This document shows positions 16,363-64,000 of a DNA stretch of 64,000 nt, in pieces (the stretch's first letter is position 1; each line of letters starts with the position of its first letter). The notes under the pieces are model-generated. The model saw only the letters and a list, made by a program, of their open reading frames with translations, searched no databases and was not told where the DNA came from. Origin of the DNA: Ianthella basta (lineage: Eukaryota > Porifera > Demospongiae > Verongiida > Ianthellidae); NCBI GenBank assembly GCA_964019415.1, contig OZ025873.1:176001-240000 (forward strand), written 5' to 3'. The translations under genes were made by a program, and so were the position numbers.

Positions 16363-19300
16363 ATGTGGTGTGCGTGCTGCTTGTCTTCTGATGCACTCTC
16401 CCCCTTCACACAGGTCCACACACTAGAACATGACATCACCTACCTCAGACCTTGACACTACGACTCTAACAAGCGTACTGTCGTCCGTCCCAGCACCGAT
16501 CATGCTCTTGTAGAGCCGCTCAGCAAAGTACTGCGGACGGCTGCGCACACACATGACAACCGTCTTGAAGCCCTTCTTCAGGTCACCACTCATCTCACGA
16601 TCGATGCTGTTTAGGATGTCACGTTGAGAGACCTGGGAGAGGAGGGGGAGGGGAGGGAGGAGGAGTAGAGGAGGGTTGGGGAAGGGGAGGTAAGGGAGAG
16701 GGAGGGGAGGGGGAGTGGAAGGGGAGGAGGGAGGGGAGGAAGCGGGAGGGGGGAGTGGGAGGGGAGGAGGGAGGGGAGGAAGCGGGAGGGGGGAGTGGGA
16801 GGGGGAGGGGGAGGGGAGAAGGACGGGAGGAGGTGAGGGAGAGGGAGAGAGGGGAGGGATGGAGGCTGCAGAATACACCACGCTGTATCCAGTACAGCCG
16901 ACTCAGCTCTAATCTGGCTCGCTAGACCGTCCCATCTAAACACTGGGCACTTAGGCTGGGAAGGGGCAGTCTAGCAGCAGTAACAATTAGTTCACACCTA
17001 TTCGACCAATCAGATACGCTTGGCAGGAATTCGTGCTAACAGTATTCATTGGCTTGAGGAGCTTTAGTTATGCAAGAGTGGGTCTTTGTGGCTGTGGCTG
17101 TGCTCTGGCTTTGGTGATTGCCGAGGGCTCAAAGCTCAGTTATCCCTCACTCTATTCCTCTCTTGGATCACTGGCTGGAGATCAACCGACGGACCGCAGA
17201 GAGGGTTGCAATGGGCCATTCGCTCATTTAGAACTTGAGAAGAATGCACCAGCAGTTGTATTTTGCAACGTGCGCTTCCTTGCTTCACGCTGGTTCAGAA
17301 TGCTAGAGCACTGTTAGAAAGCAAGTGAGACAATCTTCTTCCTTGGTCAGATGATCGCAAGTATTTCCCCACTACAGTCAGCCTATCAGCTTTCACCAAC
17401 CTGTAGCTCTGTTCTAGTGGTTGGCAGCAGCAACTGCAAAAGCACTTGTACTGTACCATCTCGCCCGTATGGTTCGGCCCAATTGCGCAGATTTACCACA
17501 CAGTATTGCTTATGAATTGCACAATACAATAGGTGTGAGTCTGATAATGCGAAGGTGTGAACTAATCGACCTCTGCTAGACCGTCCCTTCCATTCATTGC
17601 CCCCAGCGCGTAGATGGGATGGTCTAGCAAGCCAGACTAACACAGCTCAGGTCCACTCCAGTCCACAGGGATGGGAGCACACCACACTCTAGTGCGACTA
17701 CTGCCCACCTTGATGTACTCGTCAAAGGTGGCCCTCAGCTGGGGAAAGCTTCTGGTGGCCAGGATGACATTGAACTTGGATTCGTCTGTTCCCCACTTCT
17801 TCTCGCCCGCCTGGTACAACTCCTGGGCTTCACGCTTTGCCTTCTCCATGTCCACAGCAGTTCGCTCTTCACGAGCACCCTGCACAATTGGGTGGTACAC
17901 ACACACACACGCCATCTCAAGTACTGCTGCACTTGCTCAGCACCTTCCCTCCCATCTCCGCAGCCAACACAGGTCCAGGTCACCTCCCCCCCTCCCCTCC
18001 CCTTCCCCTCCCCTTCCCCTCCCCCCCCCCAATGCAGCACCTGACACATGGAGACAAGGAGCCGCTTGAAGTGCCCACTGGTCTCGCTGACTACATCCTT
18101 CTCAAGGTCACGGCGAAAGTGGAACTTGTACATTTGGACAATCTCCTGGATCTCCTGTAACCATGGAAACCATTGGGCAGCACACATCAATCTCTGTTGC
18201 AGTGTGTCTGCCACGCCCACTCAGCCCCACCTTGTTAGTGCGAGTGCAAAGTATCTCAATGAGGGCAGACTCGTCAGTCCCGGCTCCCTTCATTGCTCGG
18301 CGGAGGCACTTGGCATCGTACAGGGTCTTGGGCTCCAACATGGCCAACAGGCAGTCCTCCAGGTTTCCACTTAGCTCACTCTTCAACTCACGAATCAGGT
18401 CCTGAAGGGAATGGAAACAGTGTACTCCCCTGAGCATTATCACACCCACTCACAATCCACTGACTCCACCCACTCATTCCACTCACTGACTCCACCCCCT
18501 CACAACCCACTGACTCCACCCACTCATTCCACTCACTGACTCCACCCACTCACAACCCAACGACTCCACCCACTCATTCCACTCACTGACTCCACCCACT
18601 CACAACCCACTGACTCCACCCACTCATTCCACTCACTGACTCCACCCACTCACAACCCAACGACTCCACCCACTCATTCCACTCACTGACTCCACCCCCT
18701 CACAACCCACTGACTCCACCCCCTCACCTTGCCATACATCAGTTTAAACCTCTTCACAATGTCCTGTCGTTGATCGTTGCTACGGGAAACAAGCAAATTG
18801 ATGATGGCTGCCTCGTCTGTCCCCAGCCCCTTCATGGCCTTGCGCAACACCCCTGCGTCAGCCTCCGGGTCACAGCTTGCCGCCGCCTTGATGGTGCCAT
18901 GACCAGTTTCCTCGTTAACACTCAGGCCACTCATCTGTGTGGTCACCTGGAGGGGATAGATGTGTCAGGTGTCACATGTCACACAGAGGTGGACAGGTGT
19001 GTCAGGCGTCACATGCAGCTGTCGAAATAACGGTCGGTCATAGGCCAATTTCCGAGCGTTTTAGTTAAATGACCGCGCATTGTTTCAAGTGGTCAGTAAA
19101 TGTGACCGATCAGATTTTTCAGCATAAAACTGGACCAATATTCCCCAAAGGACTCCCATGTTCAGTGGTTATTGGATGAAGGGTACTAACGACAATTGTA
19201 TGAAGTACAGACTAGTAAATTAGCACTTAATCGATAAGCGCTGTCTTCGCTACGTGGCGGCCATCTTATTGTGACGTTTACATACCGCTACGTGCAGGGG

Positions 19301-21520
19301 CGTGACGTCACATCCTGTCCCGGTGGCTGATTGTGCAGCTGCAACCACACTGCACACCACCACAGCCAGCTCATACTACGTTGTTTACACAACAGCTTTC
19401 ACTTGTAGGGCAGTGGCATGTTTGTGACCACAATTTTGGCACCAGTGCCTATAGGAAGTTGACTTGTTTTCTTGAATAGTGTTACTATTTCCAGTAGTGA
19501 CACTACTGTGCATCCTAGGAGATTGGAACTGTTCCAGTTTGTAGCCCATTAGCCTTGCATCAACATTATATAACAAAGTTGTTAAGAAGGCAATGCTTCC
19601 TAGGAGACACAATTCTGATCGACGGGACAAAATGTAAATGACTGAACAAAATGAGGAGTGTATGGACACGTATACGAAGTGTGTGACTGAACAAAAATGT
19701 GAATGACCGAACAAAATCAGGGGTGCTCGGACATATGACTTCACAACCATAAAACCTATTTCCACCTCTGACATGTCACACGAAGGTGGACAGGTGTGTC
19801 AGGCGTCATTTGTCACAGGCGTCACTTGTCACACGAAGATGGACAACCTATACACCATATTGTACAAATTTCATGGGACATTATTTTTCACAAATTAGCA
19901 GATGTCCGCAACATTCTCCAGCATCTGAAGCACCACACACCGGGGGGGAGGGGGGGGGGGGGGGCAGGCATAAACAAGTGTATCCCTGGCACTGGAGGCA
20001 ATGATTGCAGACATATTCAACTCAGACTTGTCACCATAAGACCAGCAGCGTCGAAGCATTCAAGAAGAGTTTGGATGTCACTGAAGAGCACACCAACAGA
20101 GATAGGCGTACCGTATGGTACCAAGATGCTAGTAGTGCCTTCCCCTCCAGCCAGAGCTAATCAGGAAGACTCTGTTCTTGAGTGCAGGAATTCGGTACAA
20201 CCTAGCTGCCATCGAGCAGAGATGTGTAAATGGAATGAAGACATCTTTAGCAATGGTCCTTAAAAAGTGCCAGCAGCAAAGCAAATCACACAGTGACATC
20301 AGAGTCCTACAGGTGTAAGTGCCGTGTGCAGAGTAGGAGCCTTCGTGAATTTCCACGCACAACAAGGCCTCACCAATAAAATTACAAAATCCTTAGGCAC
20401 AAGGGGCATTTGCGAAATACATGTCCAACAAGAATATGCAAACATAGCATGATTGCACCTGTACATTGAGGTTCACTTACTGCAGCTGCAGGACCCGGCT
20501 GGGCTGGGGGCTGTTGCCCTGGGTAACCAGTTGGCGGAGGCTGTTGCCCTGGGTAACCAGTTGATGGAGGCTGTTGCCCAGGGTAACCAGTTGGTGGAGG
20601 CTGTTGCCCTGGGTAACCAGTTGGTGGAGGCTGTTGCCCTGGGTAACCAGTTGGTGGAGGCTGTTGCCCTGGGTAACCAGTTGGTGGAGGCTGTTGCCCT
20701 GGGTAACCAGTTGGTGGAGGCTGTTGCCCTGGGTAACCAGTCGGTGGAGGCTGTTGCCCTGGGTAACCAGTTGGTGGAGGCTGTTGCCCTGGGTAACCAG
20801 TCGGTGGTTGCTGCCCTGGATAACCTCCAGGAGGGGGATAGGAGCCTGGGGGAGGTCCCTGACCAAACCCAGCTACACCTGCTCCAGCATAGCTCTGAGC
20901 AGGAGGCTGTGCTGAGGGGGGAAAGGTCAGCGAAGGGGGAGGGAAAGGTGGGGTCAGTGATGGAGGGGGAGGGGTAGAGGGTGGGGTCAGTGATGGAGGG
21001 GAAGGGTAGAGGGTGGGGTCAGTGATGGAGGGGAGGGGTAGAAGGTGGGGTGAGTGATGGAGGGGGAATGACTGTGCAGGCAAGGTGCTAGTACACAATA
21101 CACACCTCCTCCGTAGGGTGGGAATCCACCAGTCCCAGGAGGGAAGGTGGTGGGTGGGGCACCAGAGGGCGGGTAACCAGGGCCACCAGGAGGGTAGCCA
21201 GCTCCTCCTGGTACCGGGAATCCAGTGCCTGCTCCAGGTGGGTAAGCGCCTCCAGCAGGAGGGGGATAAGCGCCTCCAGCAGGAGGGGGATATGCGCCAC
21301 CTGCGGGCTGGGAACGGAGAAAAATGCTCACAGCACGCGAGCACAGATTAACATACCTACCCCTACCATTGCCATACTGAGGTGGTGTGCATGGCACAAC
21401 CTCACGGACCCCTCGCTCGAAACACACTCATGCAATCTCCGCCGCCGCCGGCTGGCTGCTGCAGCCGTTCCGACTCACCGGTGGGTAGCCTCCGCCACCA
21501 GAGGGGTAGGGATAGGACAT
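15971..21520 (-). CDS. Annexin A7/A11-like, PGQ-rich N-terminus
   Basis: Nine exons in gene order: 21520-21479, 21307-21106, 20911-20481, 18946-18728, 18401-18231, 18154-18041, 17879-17709, 16632-16444, 16096-15971. Phases chain and give 554 residues. Annexins bind acidic phospholipids in a calcium-dependent way. Residues 1 to about 225 are Gly/Pro/Tyr/Gln-rich, starting [10 protein letters not shown] and including about eleven [10 protein letters not shown] units, as in annexins A7 and A11. Four core repeats follow. Type II calcium loops are visible in repeats 1 (KGLGTDE), 2 (KGAGTDE) and 4 (IGAGTDD); repeat 3 has KKWGTDE, common in the family. The start sits at the ATG before the first PYPSGGG block. 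A divergent annexin begins 1.75 kb upstream. The intron between repeats 3 and 4 carries a transposon. Confidence 0.92.
16240..16362. repeat. (GT)n microsatellite
   Basis: GT dinucleotide run with GC interruptions in the last intron of the annexin A7/A11-like gene. Confidence 0.97.
16633..16855. repeat. GGGGA purine tract with 58-bp duplication
   Basis: A G/A-only stretch beside annexin exon 16444-16632. On the coding strand it is a long polypyrimidine tract upstream of that exon's acceptor. Confidence 0.85.
16912..17637. mobile_element. MITE, family 4, TA-flanked with foldback termini
   Basis: Terminal inverted repeats of about 28 bp begin (A/G)TCTGGCT(C/T)GCTAGACC, flanked by TA on both sides (16910-16911 and 17638-17639), as for Tc1/mariner-type insertions. 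Each end also contains its own internal inverted repeat: GCTAGACCGTCCC pairs with GGGGCAGTCTAGC on the left, and a comparable pair lies on the right. It is inserted in an annexin intron. No transposase frame. Confidence 0.8.
18430..18727. repeat. Minisatellite running into a splice donor
   Basis: About six copies of a roughly 50-bp compound unit (CACTCACAACCCACTGACTC, then CACCCACTCATTCC, then ACTCACTGACTCCACC). The last unit contains the donor of annexin exon 18728-18946. Confidence 0.9.
19014..19770 (-). mobile_element. Non-autonomous DNA transposon, family 1 copy B
   Basis: Inverted copy of the element at 4849-5579, about 757 bp. Termini are CAGCTGTCGAAATAAC and, inverted, CAGAGGTGGAAATAGG. 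A 5-bp direct repeat ACATG flanks it (19009-19013 and 19771-19775). The surrounding small repeat (GTCACATGTCACAC) gives the presumed empty site. It lies in the annexin A7/A11-like intron 19.0-20.4 kb. Confidence 0.85.
19776..20480. other. Annexin intron remainder, unexplained unique sequence
   Basis: After a few copies of a TGTCACACGAAGGTGGACAG-like repeat (19776-19840), about 600 bp of unique sequence with a G run at 19942-19964 precedes exon 20481-20911. It may be decayed mobile-element sequence. I recognise no domain. Confidence 0.4.
20490..20815 (-). repeat. Coding 30-bp tandem repeat ([10 protein letters not shown])
   Basis: About eleven in-frame units inside annexin exon 20481-20911. 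Units are nearly identical at DNA level (GGTTACCCAGGGCAACAGCC on the coding strand), so recent expansion or homogenisation is likely. Confidence 0.95.
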
Positions 21521-40404: not shown

Positions 40405-43400
40405 TCAGAACAGTCCTAGATCTTTCTTAGTCTTCTGCTGTTTCCACTTTGGAATCTTCTCAAACTCAGACTTTGTCATCTTAAACAAGCTCTGGAATTC
40501 CTCGTCACTAAGGTGTTGCTAGGAGTATAAAGTGTGACACAAGTATCATCACTAAGGTGTTGCTAGGTACTGTCATGTGACCAGCTCACCTCCTTGCTGG
40601 ACGGGTCCACATCAGGAGGACACTTGTCCTTCAGTGCCTCATAAGGATACATCTTGAACACACCAGCCTGGGCCACCACCTGCCGGGGACGGGAAGAACA
40701 CACACGGGCTACATCACCTGGGGCCCACCACACATTCCCTCAACCAGCCAACCCATCACCTCTGCCACGCTCTCAGCCTGCCCTCCACCGGAGCTCTTAA
40801 GCTCCTCCAAGTACTGCTCGTAAGTCTTGTTAGCAGCCCACAGCTCCGAGTTCCAGCCAAAGAAGTGACCAGTGAAGGTAGGCAGCTCAAAGCCCTGCTT
40901 GATCTGAACCAGGAGAGTGTTGTCCTCATTGCGACCCGAGGGATCACTACGCACATACTCCTACATAGCAGGGAGGAGGGGGAGGGGCTCAGTCCATGGA
41001 CCACACCTCTATTATCCCCAATATCAGTGGACTCACTGTGGCAACCCTCAGTGACTCCTCCTTCTCCTTCTTGTTGGCACCACGGCCCACCCACACGTAC
41101 ACTGTGTCGTAGGTGTCCAGGATCATCACATCATCCTCAATCAGGTCCTACAGAAGTGAGTGAGTGGAGTCACAGCAATGAGTGAGTGGGTGGAGTCACA
41201 GCAATGAGTGAGTGGGTGGAGTCACAGCAATGAGTGAGTGGGTGGAGTCACAGCAATGAGTGAGTGGGTGGAGTCACAGCAATGCGCGAGTGGGTGGAGT
41301 CACAGCAATGCGCGAGTGGGTGGAGTCACAGCAATGAGCAAGTTGACCAATACAGAGTGGTATACACAAGAACACACAAGACATGCCCCCCCTCCCCTTC
41401 CGTCCCCCCTTCCCTTCCCTCCCCTCCCCTTCCCCTCTCCCCTTCCCCTCTCCCTCCCCCCTCCCCTCCCCTCCCCTTCCCCTCCCCTCTCCCCTCTCCC
41501 CCTCCCCTTCCCTTCCCTTCCCCCTTCCCTCTCCCCCTCCCCTCCCCCATTCCCCCTCCCCTCCTCTTCCCCCTTCCCTCCCCCCACCTCCTGGGTGAAG
41601 TCAAAGATCTCTTCCACTGTGAAGCGTCCGCTGGCATTGGAGCACTGGAAGAGACGGGCTGGGTGCGAGGCCACCACCTCCTGTGGACGGGGCAGGGACG
41701 AGGGCAATATGTCAGGAGGTGTGTTAGTTTCTCCATTACTGCCCACACCATTGCAAGCAATGCTGCCACGATACAATAACACTGACATGTCAAGGTTAGC
41801 ACCTTTCCAAGTTGTATGGTGTTTATAGGCACGACCCCTGAGGGCACAAAGCACCCAAGGGGAAGTGCTTACGAACAACATACAAGGAGGAATCAACCTG
41901 CTTCTAAAGAGATGCCCAAGCAGTCTTCAGTAACAGTAGGTAGGAGTGATGGCTCCTAGACTACAAAGACCATAAAAACATCATAAAGATACACGTAACA
42001 TATCAGCAAATGTATTCTTTCAATAGTCGTAGATACAGATTCCCTTGTATCAAGGCATCACCAGTCCACACAACACACAAGCTACTGTCCACCCTCCCCC
42101 CAGCCAGCCCACCCACCCTCAAACTACTCTTCACCACCCACAGTACTCACAAGCTACCCCCTAAACCCTCCTCCACCCCCAGCCACACAACCTACCTCAA
42201 AGATCTTGCTCTGATGGTACTCGGTCTTGCCCCCGAGAGCGGCCCAGAAGGTATCAGGCTCTTTCTCCTCCTGAATCTTGACTGGCTCCCTCCCTGGGGT
42301 GACCATGCTAGCAACATGGTTGGCCATGTCACGCTCATCACCACTGCAGCCCTAAATGTTGAGGGGGGAGGGGCAAGGGGAGGGGCAAGGGAGGGGAAAG
42401 GGAGGGGGAGGGGCAAGAAAGGGTGAGGGGCAAGGAAGGGGAGGGGTAAGGGAGGTGATTATGCCTTATAGATACACAGTGTTGGCTAAGCCACACGGCT
42501 CTGTATGGCCCTTGCAGCTCCACCTGCCACAACCAACAAAATGGCCGCCTGTTGTGACCTACCTTGCCATACCAGATGTACGTCTCCAAAGGTGTCTCCA
42601 GCACAAAGCAGTCGTTGGTGTTGAGGGCAGAAGCCTTCTCCTCTACCTGCACAGCACGGGTGTTCAAGGTGGAGGTCCCCTTGACCTGGAAGAGACGAGT
42701 GCCGTCTACGTCGTACGAGTCACTGTCAAAGCGGTTCTTGAATCCTGATGCCTTCCCACCCTGGGTACCACAGAGAGAATCACCAGGGGTAGCTACCGCC
42801 ATGTGTGTGTGCACGTGTGTGTGTGTGCATCCTCACAGCATGGATGACCATCTTCCCCCTGAAGATCTGGAGGAAGTGCTCTGGTTCCTTGTACTGGACC
42901 ACGCGGACCTGGACAGGAGCACCTCCGTACTTGTCATCCAGTGCCACTGTGTGTATGGCTGCAGCGCCGCGCTCATCCTGGGGAGGGGGGGGGGGGGGGG
43001 GGGGGGGTTAACATCAGGTCACAATGTGACTTAACCAAACTAGGACATTTCAGTACACCACTATTGGTAGCCTTCCCTCTCCTCTCACATGCTGTGCCTC
43101 TATTGTGCCCCACCCCCATCCCTCCCCTCACAACCTGTGCCCCACCCCCATCCCTCCCCTCACAACCTGTGCCCCACCCCCATCCCTCCCCTCACAACCT
43201 GTGCCCCACCCCCACCCCTCCCCTCACAGCCTGTGCCCCACCCCCACCCCTCCCCTCACAACCTGTGCCCCACCCCCATCCCTCCCCTCACAGCCTGTGC
43301 CCCACCTGGGTCGACTCCTGCCCCAGCCAGAAGTAGATGATGTAGTGCTCCTTGCCGTTGACCAGGTAGGTGTACAGGATGATGTAGCTGTCACCTCCAT

Positions 43401-60546: not shown

Positions 60547-62646
<2,100 letters not shown>

Positions 62647-62649
62647 CTG

Positions 62650-64000
62650 CAGTGGAATCAACCCACAGAGAAGGGCTCAGCTGGGACCAACCCACAGGGA
62701 AGGGCTCAGCTGGGACCAACCCACAGAGAAGGGCTCAGCTGAGACCAACCCACAGAGAAGGGCTCAGCTGGGACCAACCCACAGGGAAGGGCTCAGCTGG
62801 GACCAACCCACAGGGAAGGGCTCAGCTGGGACCAACCCACAGGGAAGGGCTCAGCTGGGACCAACCCACAGGGAAGGAGCTCAGCTGGGACCAACCCACA
62901 GGGAAGGAGCTCAGTTGAGACCAACCCACAGGGAAGGAGCTAAGCTGGGACCAACCCACAGGGAAGGAGCTCAGCTGGGACCAACCCACAGAGAAGGAGC
63001 TCAGCTGGGACCAACCCACAGGGAAGGGCTCAGCTGGGACCAACCCACAGGGAAGGAGCTCAGCTGGGACCAACCCACAGGGAAGGAGCTCAGCTGGGAC
63101 CAACCCACAGGGAAGGGCTCAGCTGGGACCAACCCACAGGGAAGGGCTCAGCTGGGACCAACCCACATGGAAGGGCTCAGCTGGGACCAACCCACAGAGA
63201 AGGAGCTCAGCTGGGACCAACCCACAGAGAAGGAGCTCAGCTGGGACCAACCCACAGGGAAGGAGCTCAGCTGGGACCAACCCACAGGGAAGGGCTCAGC
63301 TGGGACCAACCCACAGGGAAGGGCTCAGCTGGGACCAACCCACAGGGAAGGAGCTCAGCTGGGACCAACCCACAGGGAAGGGCTCAGCTGGGACCAACCC
63401 ACAGAGAAGGAGCTCAGCTGGGACCAACCCACAGGGAAGGAGCTCAGCTGGGACCAACCCACAGGGAAGGGCTCAGCTGGGACCAACCCACAGAGAAGGG
63501 CTCAGCTGGGACCAACCCACAGGGAAGGGCTCAGCTGGGACCAACCCACAGGGAAGGAGCTCAGCTGGGACCAACCCACAGGGAAGGGCTCAGCTGGGAC
63601 CAACCCACAGGGAAGGAGCTCAGCTGGGACCAACCCACAGGGAAGGGCTCAGCTGGGACCAACCCACAGGGAAGGAGCTCAGCTGGGACCAACCCACAGG
63701 GAAGGGCTCAGCTGGGACCAACCCACAGGGAAGGAGCTCAGCTGGGACCAACCCACAGGGAAGGAGCTCAGCTGGGACCAACCCACAGAGAAGGGCTCAG
63801 CTGGGACCAACCCACAGAGAAGGGCTCAGCTGGGACCAACCCACAGGGAAGGAGCTCAGCTGGGACCAACCCACAGGGAAGGAGCTCAGCTGGGACCAAC
63901 CCACAGGGAAGGAGCTCAGCTGGGACCAACCCACAGGGAAGGAGCTCAGCTGGGACCAACCCACAGGGAAGGAGCTCAGCTGGGACCAACCCACAGGGAA
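62650..64000. repeat. 29-30 bp minisatellite, about 45 copies, open at right edge
   Basis: Unit CTCAGCTGGGACCAACCCAC plus AGGGAAGGAG (or AGGGAAGGG, AGAGAAGG). It starts within about ten bases of the CaMKII exon acceptor and continues to the last base of the window. Two unit lengths, 29 and 30 bp, are interspersed. Confidence 0.97.

Follow-up and report, generated by a model that had tools for sequence, protein, structure and literature searches.

A CaMKII gene of Ianthella basta carries a tandem array whose final copy, as judged from its position, is the pyrimidine tract of a real splice acceptor. We consider it reasonably probable that this array is a locus-specific intronic minisatellite which was seeded beside the acceptor and expanded mostly in the direction away from the exon. 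In the window (the whole analysed stretch of 64,000 nucleotides), unit parsing placed the array, with no strand assigned, at 62659..64000, and TRF gave the same edge at 62659. It comprises 45 full 29/30-bp units and one partial unit, a count that refers to the window part only, as the array continues to the window's last base (64000). The units fall into types A (30 bp, n = 17), B (29 bp, n = 15), C (n = 5) and D (n = 4), together with four single variants. The copy nearest the acceptor is a complete type C unit; the 16 bp CAACCCACAGAGAAGG beside the acceptor are unit sequence and belong to it, and this exon-side part of the final copy (62659..62674, minus strand; coding CCTTCTCTGTGGGTTG) would by its position act as the tract. 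The 12 nt between array and exon, here called the tail (62647..62658, minus strand; coding ATTCCACTGCAG), end in the acceptor AG (62647..62648, minus strand), where the coding sequence reads ...CCACTGCAG|CCTGAG. The array, its position and the identity of tract and unit are established. With head-to-tail units in the 10-100 bp range, in an intron and at a single locus, the array has the features of an intronic minisatellite, its intron side being taken from exon 62544-62646.

This exon (62544..62646, minus strand, 103 nt) reads PENLLL...HKEYF(G) in translation and has the donor TTG|GTAAGT; together with the following exons it matched CaMKII alpha 7b55 best in a phmmer search (E 1.8e-74). It begins at the PEN of the catalytic loop, which we take to lie inside the kinase C-lobe, and on this assumed anatomy the placement of the exon just upstream of the C-lobe, as proposed in the sequence-only reading, was wrong. 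The intron carrying the array is presumably an old one. The window's end falls within the CaMKII gene (minus strand), and beyond the next 5,000 bases of the contig (C6:240001-245000) a tensin- or PTEN-like phosphatase gene was recognized by eye on the plus strand. Shortly past the donor of the exon, a TRF-type repeat call marks a purine-rich array (62411..62534, no strand assigned; coding GGGGAGGGG). Among the literature matches listed, nothing relevant was found on CaMKII intron positions and no comparable array was reported in any CaMKII gene, a result that says little beyond this narrow coverage.

Intronic arrays are common in this DNA, since tandem repeats make up 17,926 of the 64,000 bases of the window (28%) and 29,409 of the 218,247 bases of non-redundant DNA examined with the window included (13%). 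The CaMKII unit itself was found by DNA search at this locus only in the 209-Mb assembly, the search skipping simple repeats and very common words, and the seed of the array was for that reason probably local. Spread by a transposon or introner, which would place the same unit at many loci, was discarded on the same search. A pattern search with one 16-mer of the unit returned one further match, on C11, which was dropped as a second array locus because it lies, by eye, in an apparent exon and appears coding. Since tandem arrays grow in place, an array edge that falls inside the pyrimidine tract points to a seed beside the acceptor. The first 18 of the 45 units, counted from the exon, contain all four of the variants that occur once (P 0.02, with the cut set post hoc). 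Newer growth at the distal side fits this placement, a polarity that refers to the window part of the array.

We infer the seed beside the AG, the growth polarity, the constraint on the edge and the use of the last AG. In the favoured course of events, a piece of about 29 bp of the intron just upstream of the acceptor would have been duplicated in tandem, and the copies would have gone on expanding, chiefly away from the exon. Splicing would pin the exon-side edge, as the last copy may serve as pyrimidine tract, and the 12 nt past the array, with a possible branch-like TTGAT followed by CTGCAG, would have been retained. Splicing most likely still takes place at the last AG, which exon definition downstream and the unique tail may favour; splicing at upstream CAGs would give frameshifts or stops and hence be wasteful.

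A true 'mirage' would differ from this course in its founding duplication, which would have covered the acceptor together with the opening bases of the exon; each unit would then descend from acceptor and exon start and have decayed since. We regard this origin as unlikely, and the same holds for the derivations it would involve, either of the unit's CTGAGCC from a CTGCAG|CC spaced at exactly 29 nt or of CAG|CTGAG from CAG|CCTGAG. In the exact 29-nt register, the tail ATTCCACTGCAG is identical to the unit GTCCCAGCTGAG at 6 of 12 positions by hand count, the next two bases CC match as well, and by eye the real AGCC comes to lie over the AGCC of the unit. When anchored similarity was compared with 195 predicted acceptor contexts in three scorings, the value for the 29-bp unit was equalled by 6, 7 or 13 of them, which counts in favour of the mirage, whereas for the 30-bp unit 16, 28 or 32 contexts did as well; overall, 3-16% of the contexts resemble the unit equally well. 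In five scorings, only 3-15 of 300 shuffles (1-5%) reached the observed similarity, and the tail is to this extent unit-like, which together with the 29-bp result is a point against the preferred origin and leaves room for a seed spanning the acceptor. Against the mirage, the same similarity was equalled by 12-61 of 300 window segments and by 10-48 of 300 acceptor-like segments (3-20% of real segments), and the real tail was present in none of the 45 units (0/45). Moreover, identity breaks abruptly at the array edge: ungapped hand counts gave 0 mismatches in 16 positions inside and 6 in 12 beyond (Fisher P 0.0025), and with two indels permitted the counts were 0/16 and 4/13 (P 0.03).

Tail and exon start, read as a diverged unit, would thus stand above shuffles and barely above real sequence, a marginal similarity. 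The sequence-only reading had taken positions 62640-62658 (CTCAGG, CTGCAG, TGGAAT) for a diverged first copy of the unit, and had held that an exon-proximal segment no closer to the unit than chance would speak against it. In alignment against the controls the similarity exceeds that of most shuffles; with respect to real sequence the margin is slight and the identity break sharp, so that the diverged copy is at best a candidate and the chance expectation is neither confirmed nor refuted. Likewise, the view that the array grew from the splice acceptor is supported insofar as the array abuts the acceptor, the tract equals the last copy and the seed was probably local; for AG or exon bases within the seed the similarity is marginal only. 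The array was plausibly seeded beside the acceptor, not demonstrably from the AG itself.

Lancelets already offer examples of tandem repeats located at splice sites. In two reports, lancelet (amphioxus) mirages are described as tandem repeats at the exon-intron boundary of Adh3, globin and TnC, with similar structures in PGBD5, whose units carry AG/GT signals and which reportedly leave regular splicing undisturbed (PMC3087553, PMC3902484). As far as these descriptions go, they represent the closest known kind (PMC3087553), and their existence lends the mirage origin some support. Tandem repeats at the boundary, AG or GT signals in many units and a real exon in place are shared between the two: mirage units measure about 10-160 bp, the CaMKII units 29/30 bp with an edge 12 nt off the exon, and 43 CAG among 88 AG occur on its coding strand upstream of the acceptor. 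Lancelet repeats are, however, described as spanning the boundary, whereas the CaMKII array ends 12 nt before the exon and exon content is marginally suggested, at the level set by the control acceptors (6-13/195 for the 29-bp and 16-32/195 for the 30-bp unit). Mirages are further marked by lengths that are unstable between haplotypes; for the CaMKII unit the DNA search listed a single locus, on C6. With ordinary intronic minisatellites the array shares the 29/30-bp unit, the 45 or more copies, the alternating variants and the single locus, but it lies unusually near the acceptor and provides its pyrimidine tract. Minisatellites with units of about 30 bp also expand at gene boundaries in human segmental duplications and reportedly change gene structure there (PMC2812944); in these cases new introns may form, whereas the CaMKII array lengthens an existing intron.

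The claim that the units are acceptor-like, with dozens of sites ahead of the real one, was confirmed. In the window part, 43 CAG sites lie upstream of the real acceptor on the coding strand, nearly every unit bearing an acceptor-like CCCAG or CTCAG, and the closest AGs ahead of the real one lie at -29 and -34. The proposed scoring of the units for 3' splice strength, carried out with a simple matrix of acceptor weights, gave 0.2 for the real acceptor and 0.5 to 2.5 for the upstream CAGs, so that all 43 score at or above the real site, as do 43 of the 88 AGs in total. The real acceptor also scored below all 22 curated window acceptors (1.4-10.6), a comparison biased to high scores because these were hand-picked from predicted exons, themselves chosen partly by acceptor score. 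Use of the last AG is left unexplained by the matrix, since the decoys score equal to or above it. Ahead of the exon, the window contains a single YTNAY match, which is formed by the tail and the array edge and has its A at -12; no such branch-point match occurs within the array units themselves in the window part. CTGAG is present 44 times ahead of the exon, and the A of its last occurrence is at -31.

Insert lengths are a multiple of three for 17 of the 43 CAG decoys, none of them open, and none of the 88 upstream AGs in the window part yields an open in-frame insert (0/88). For this reason decoy use would spoil the reading frame, and productive alternative exons from the decoys are, as predicted from the reading frames, unlikely; an effect on exon choice by that route, as had been suggested, found no support. 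It is conceivable, though quite unlikely, that the CAG run acts as a regulatory decoy array which delays or redirects the choice of 3' splice site and sets the level of functional CaMKII mRNA via unproductive splicing and decay. The scores would suit it, with all 43 upstream CAGs at or above a real acceptor that itself scores below the 22 curated ones, and so would the lack of any decoy with a productive insert, as poison splicing requires. In addition, the C. elegans minisatellite CeRep25B is reportedly over-represented near alternative splicing regions (PMC4039745). This is countered by the lancelet mirages, which reportedly leave regular splicing alone (PMC3087553, PMC3902484), and by the array units, which are without a YTNAY branch-point match of their own. 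In a kinase exon with a repeat-derived pyrimidine tract both acceptor strength and decoy number could vary between individuals.

We also compared the CaMKII array with arrays at other splice junctions of the DNA examined. Exon models were built from kinase codon use and splice weights, and 40 of 52 sources were kept after removal of redundant loci. The kinase family search, which recovered for the most part nearly complete domains within a single open frame, served for training of the exon models and as a source of extra DNA; a retrained donor model pushed exons beyond their donors, and the kinase-trained model was used instead. The models recovered an annexin gene, its name also given by Pfam, and what we presume from translations, by eye, to be gelsolin, AMPK and prolyl-3-hydroxylase-like genes. 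As CaMKII and a second annexin are absent from the exon chains, which also include false exons, the junction, context and recurrence counts are approximate and leave CaMKII out.

The placement null covered 147 predicted introns, of which 25 held complex-unit arrays (period >=10) and 21 simple arrays. Within 2 nt of a junction, complex arrays were found at 3 donors and at no acceptor, where 0.79 would be expected for donors and acceptors together; within 12 nt there were 5 (3.40 expected) and within 20 nt 8 (5.48 expected). Simple purine, pyrimidine or two-letter arrays were found within 12 nt at 5 donors and 8 acceptors (13 against 2.86 expected), as pyrimidine tracts would give, and all arrays of period >=10 pooled gave 17 against 7.67. 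Recurrence was assessed for 16-mers of higher complexity in introns of at least 120 nt. Tandem recurrence was seen for 3 of 100 complex 16-mers at donors and 0 of 104 at acceptors, and for 0.7% of 274 at 8-20 nt from the acceptor, 1.3% of 480 at 20-40 nt and 10.4% of 12,178 in the interior, the counts at the edge being somewhat lowered because edge words have one-sided neighbours.

An early impression that complex arrays generally nucleate at splice junctions was dropped after the placement null and the recurrence test. Similarly, the extension of an acceptor origin to arrays as a rule is unsupported for complex arrays, given the recurrence of 0/104 beside acceptors, 0.7% at 8-20 nt and 10.4% in the interior. 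The CaMKII array, complex and with its edge at -12, is an exception and not an instance of a rule, because tandem recurrence of complex sequence is lower near junctions than in the interior. The same scarcity of complex repeats near acceptors in the DNA examined would suit a route in which the array arose elsewhere in the intron and was brought to the acceptor by deletion of the intervening DNA, its closeness then being secondary. This route requires an extra deletion that ended exactly inside the pyrimidine tract, and we hold it to be very improbable.

Exact array starts at donors amount to a small-number hint. An array begins no more than 1 nt from each of three donors, namely annexin 18727, gelsolin 43305 and AMPK L067:457. 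In the AMPK alpha-like kinase gene, a period-21 array (L067:457-587, on C4) begins at the intron donor, and its units end in ATCAG|GTGGGC, the same as the exon does, a similarity equalled by 2, 6 or 14 of 194 control tails. As judged from this similarity, the AMPK array is the best mirage candidate seen, better than the CaMKII array. The minisatellites at window positions 18443-18726 (annexin, period 50) and 43104-43306 (gelsolin, period 32) start within 1 nt of an intron donor and carry GTGAG- or GTGGGG-type donors inside their units; similarity extending into the exon was sought for both and was not found. At 41155-41338, a period-26 array ends 7 nt from the gelsolin acceptor 41147, with no similarity past the array edge.

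Together, the CaMKII, AMPK, annexin and gelsolin arrays provide test cases for whether boundary-hugging arrays are more widespread among animals than in lancelets, and for how the spliceosome passes over dozens of sites that resemble the real one. A joint reading, with a mirage founded on the CaMKII acceptor, equally strong decoys acting as a length-variable rheostat of productive splicing and boundary arrays in these four genes recurring outside lancelets, appears very unlikely.

Several window introns have purine-rich arrays after their donors and pyrimidine-rich arrays before their acceptors on the coding strand, in excess of the placement null. Finally, a 30-bp repeat at window positions 20505-20807 is open in one frame on each strand.
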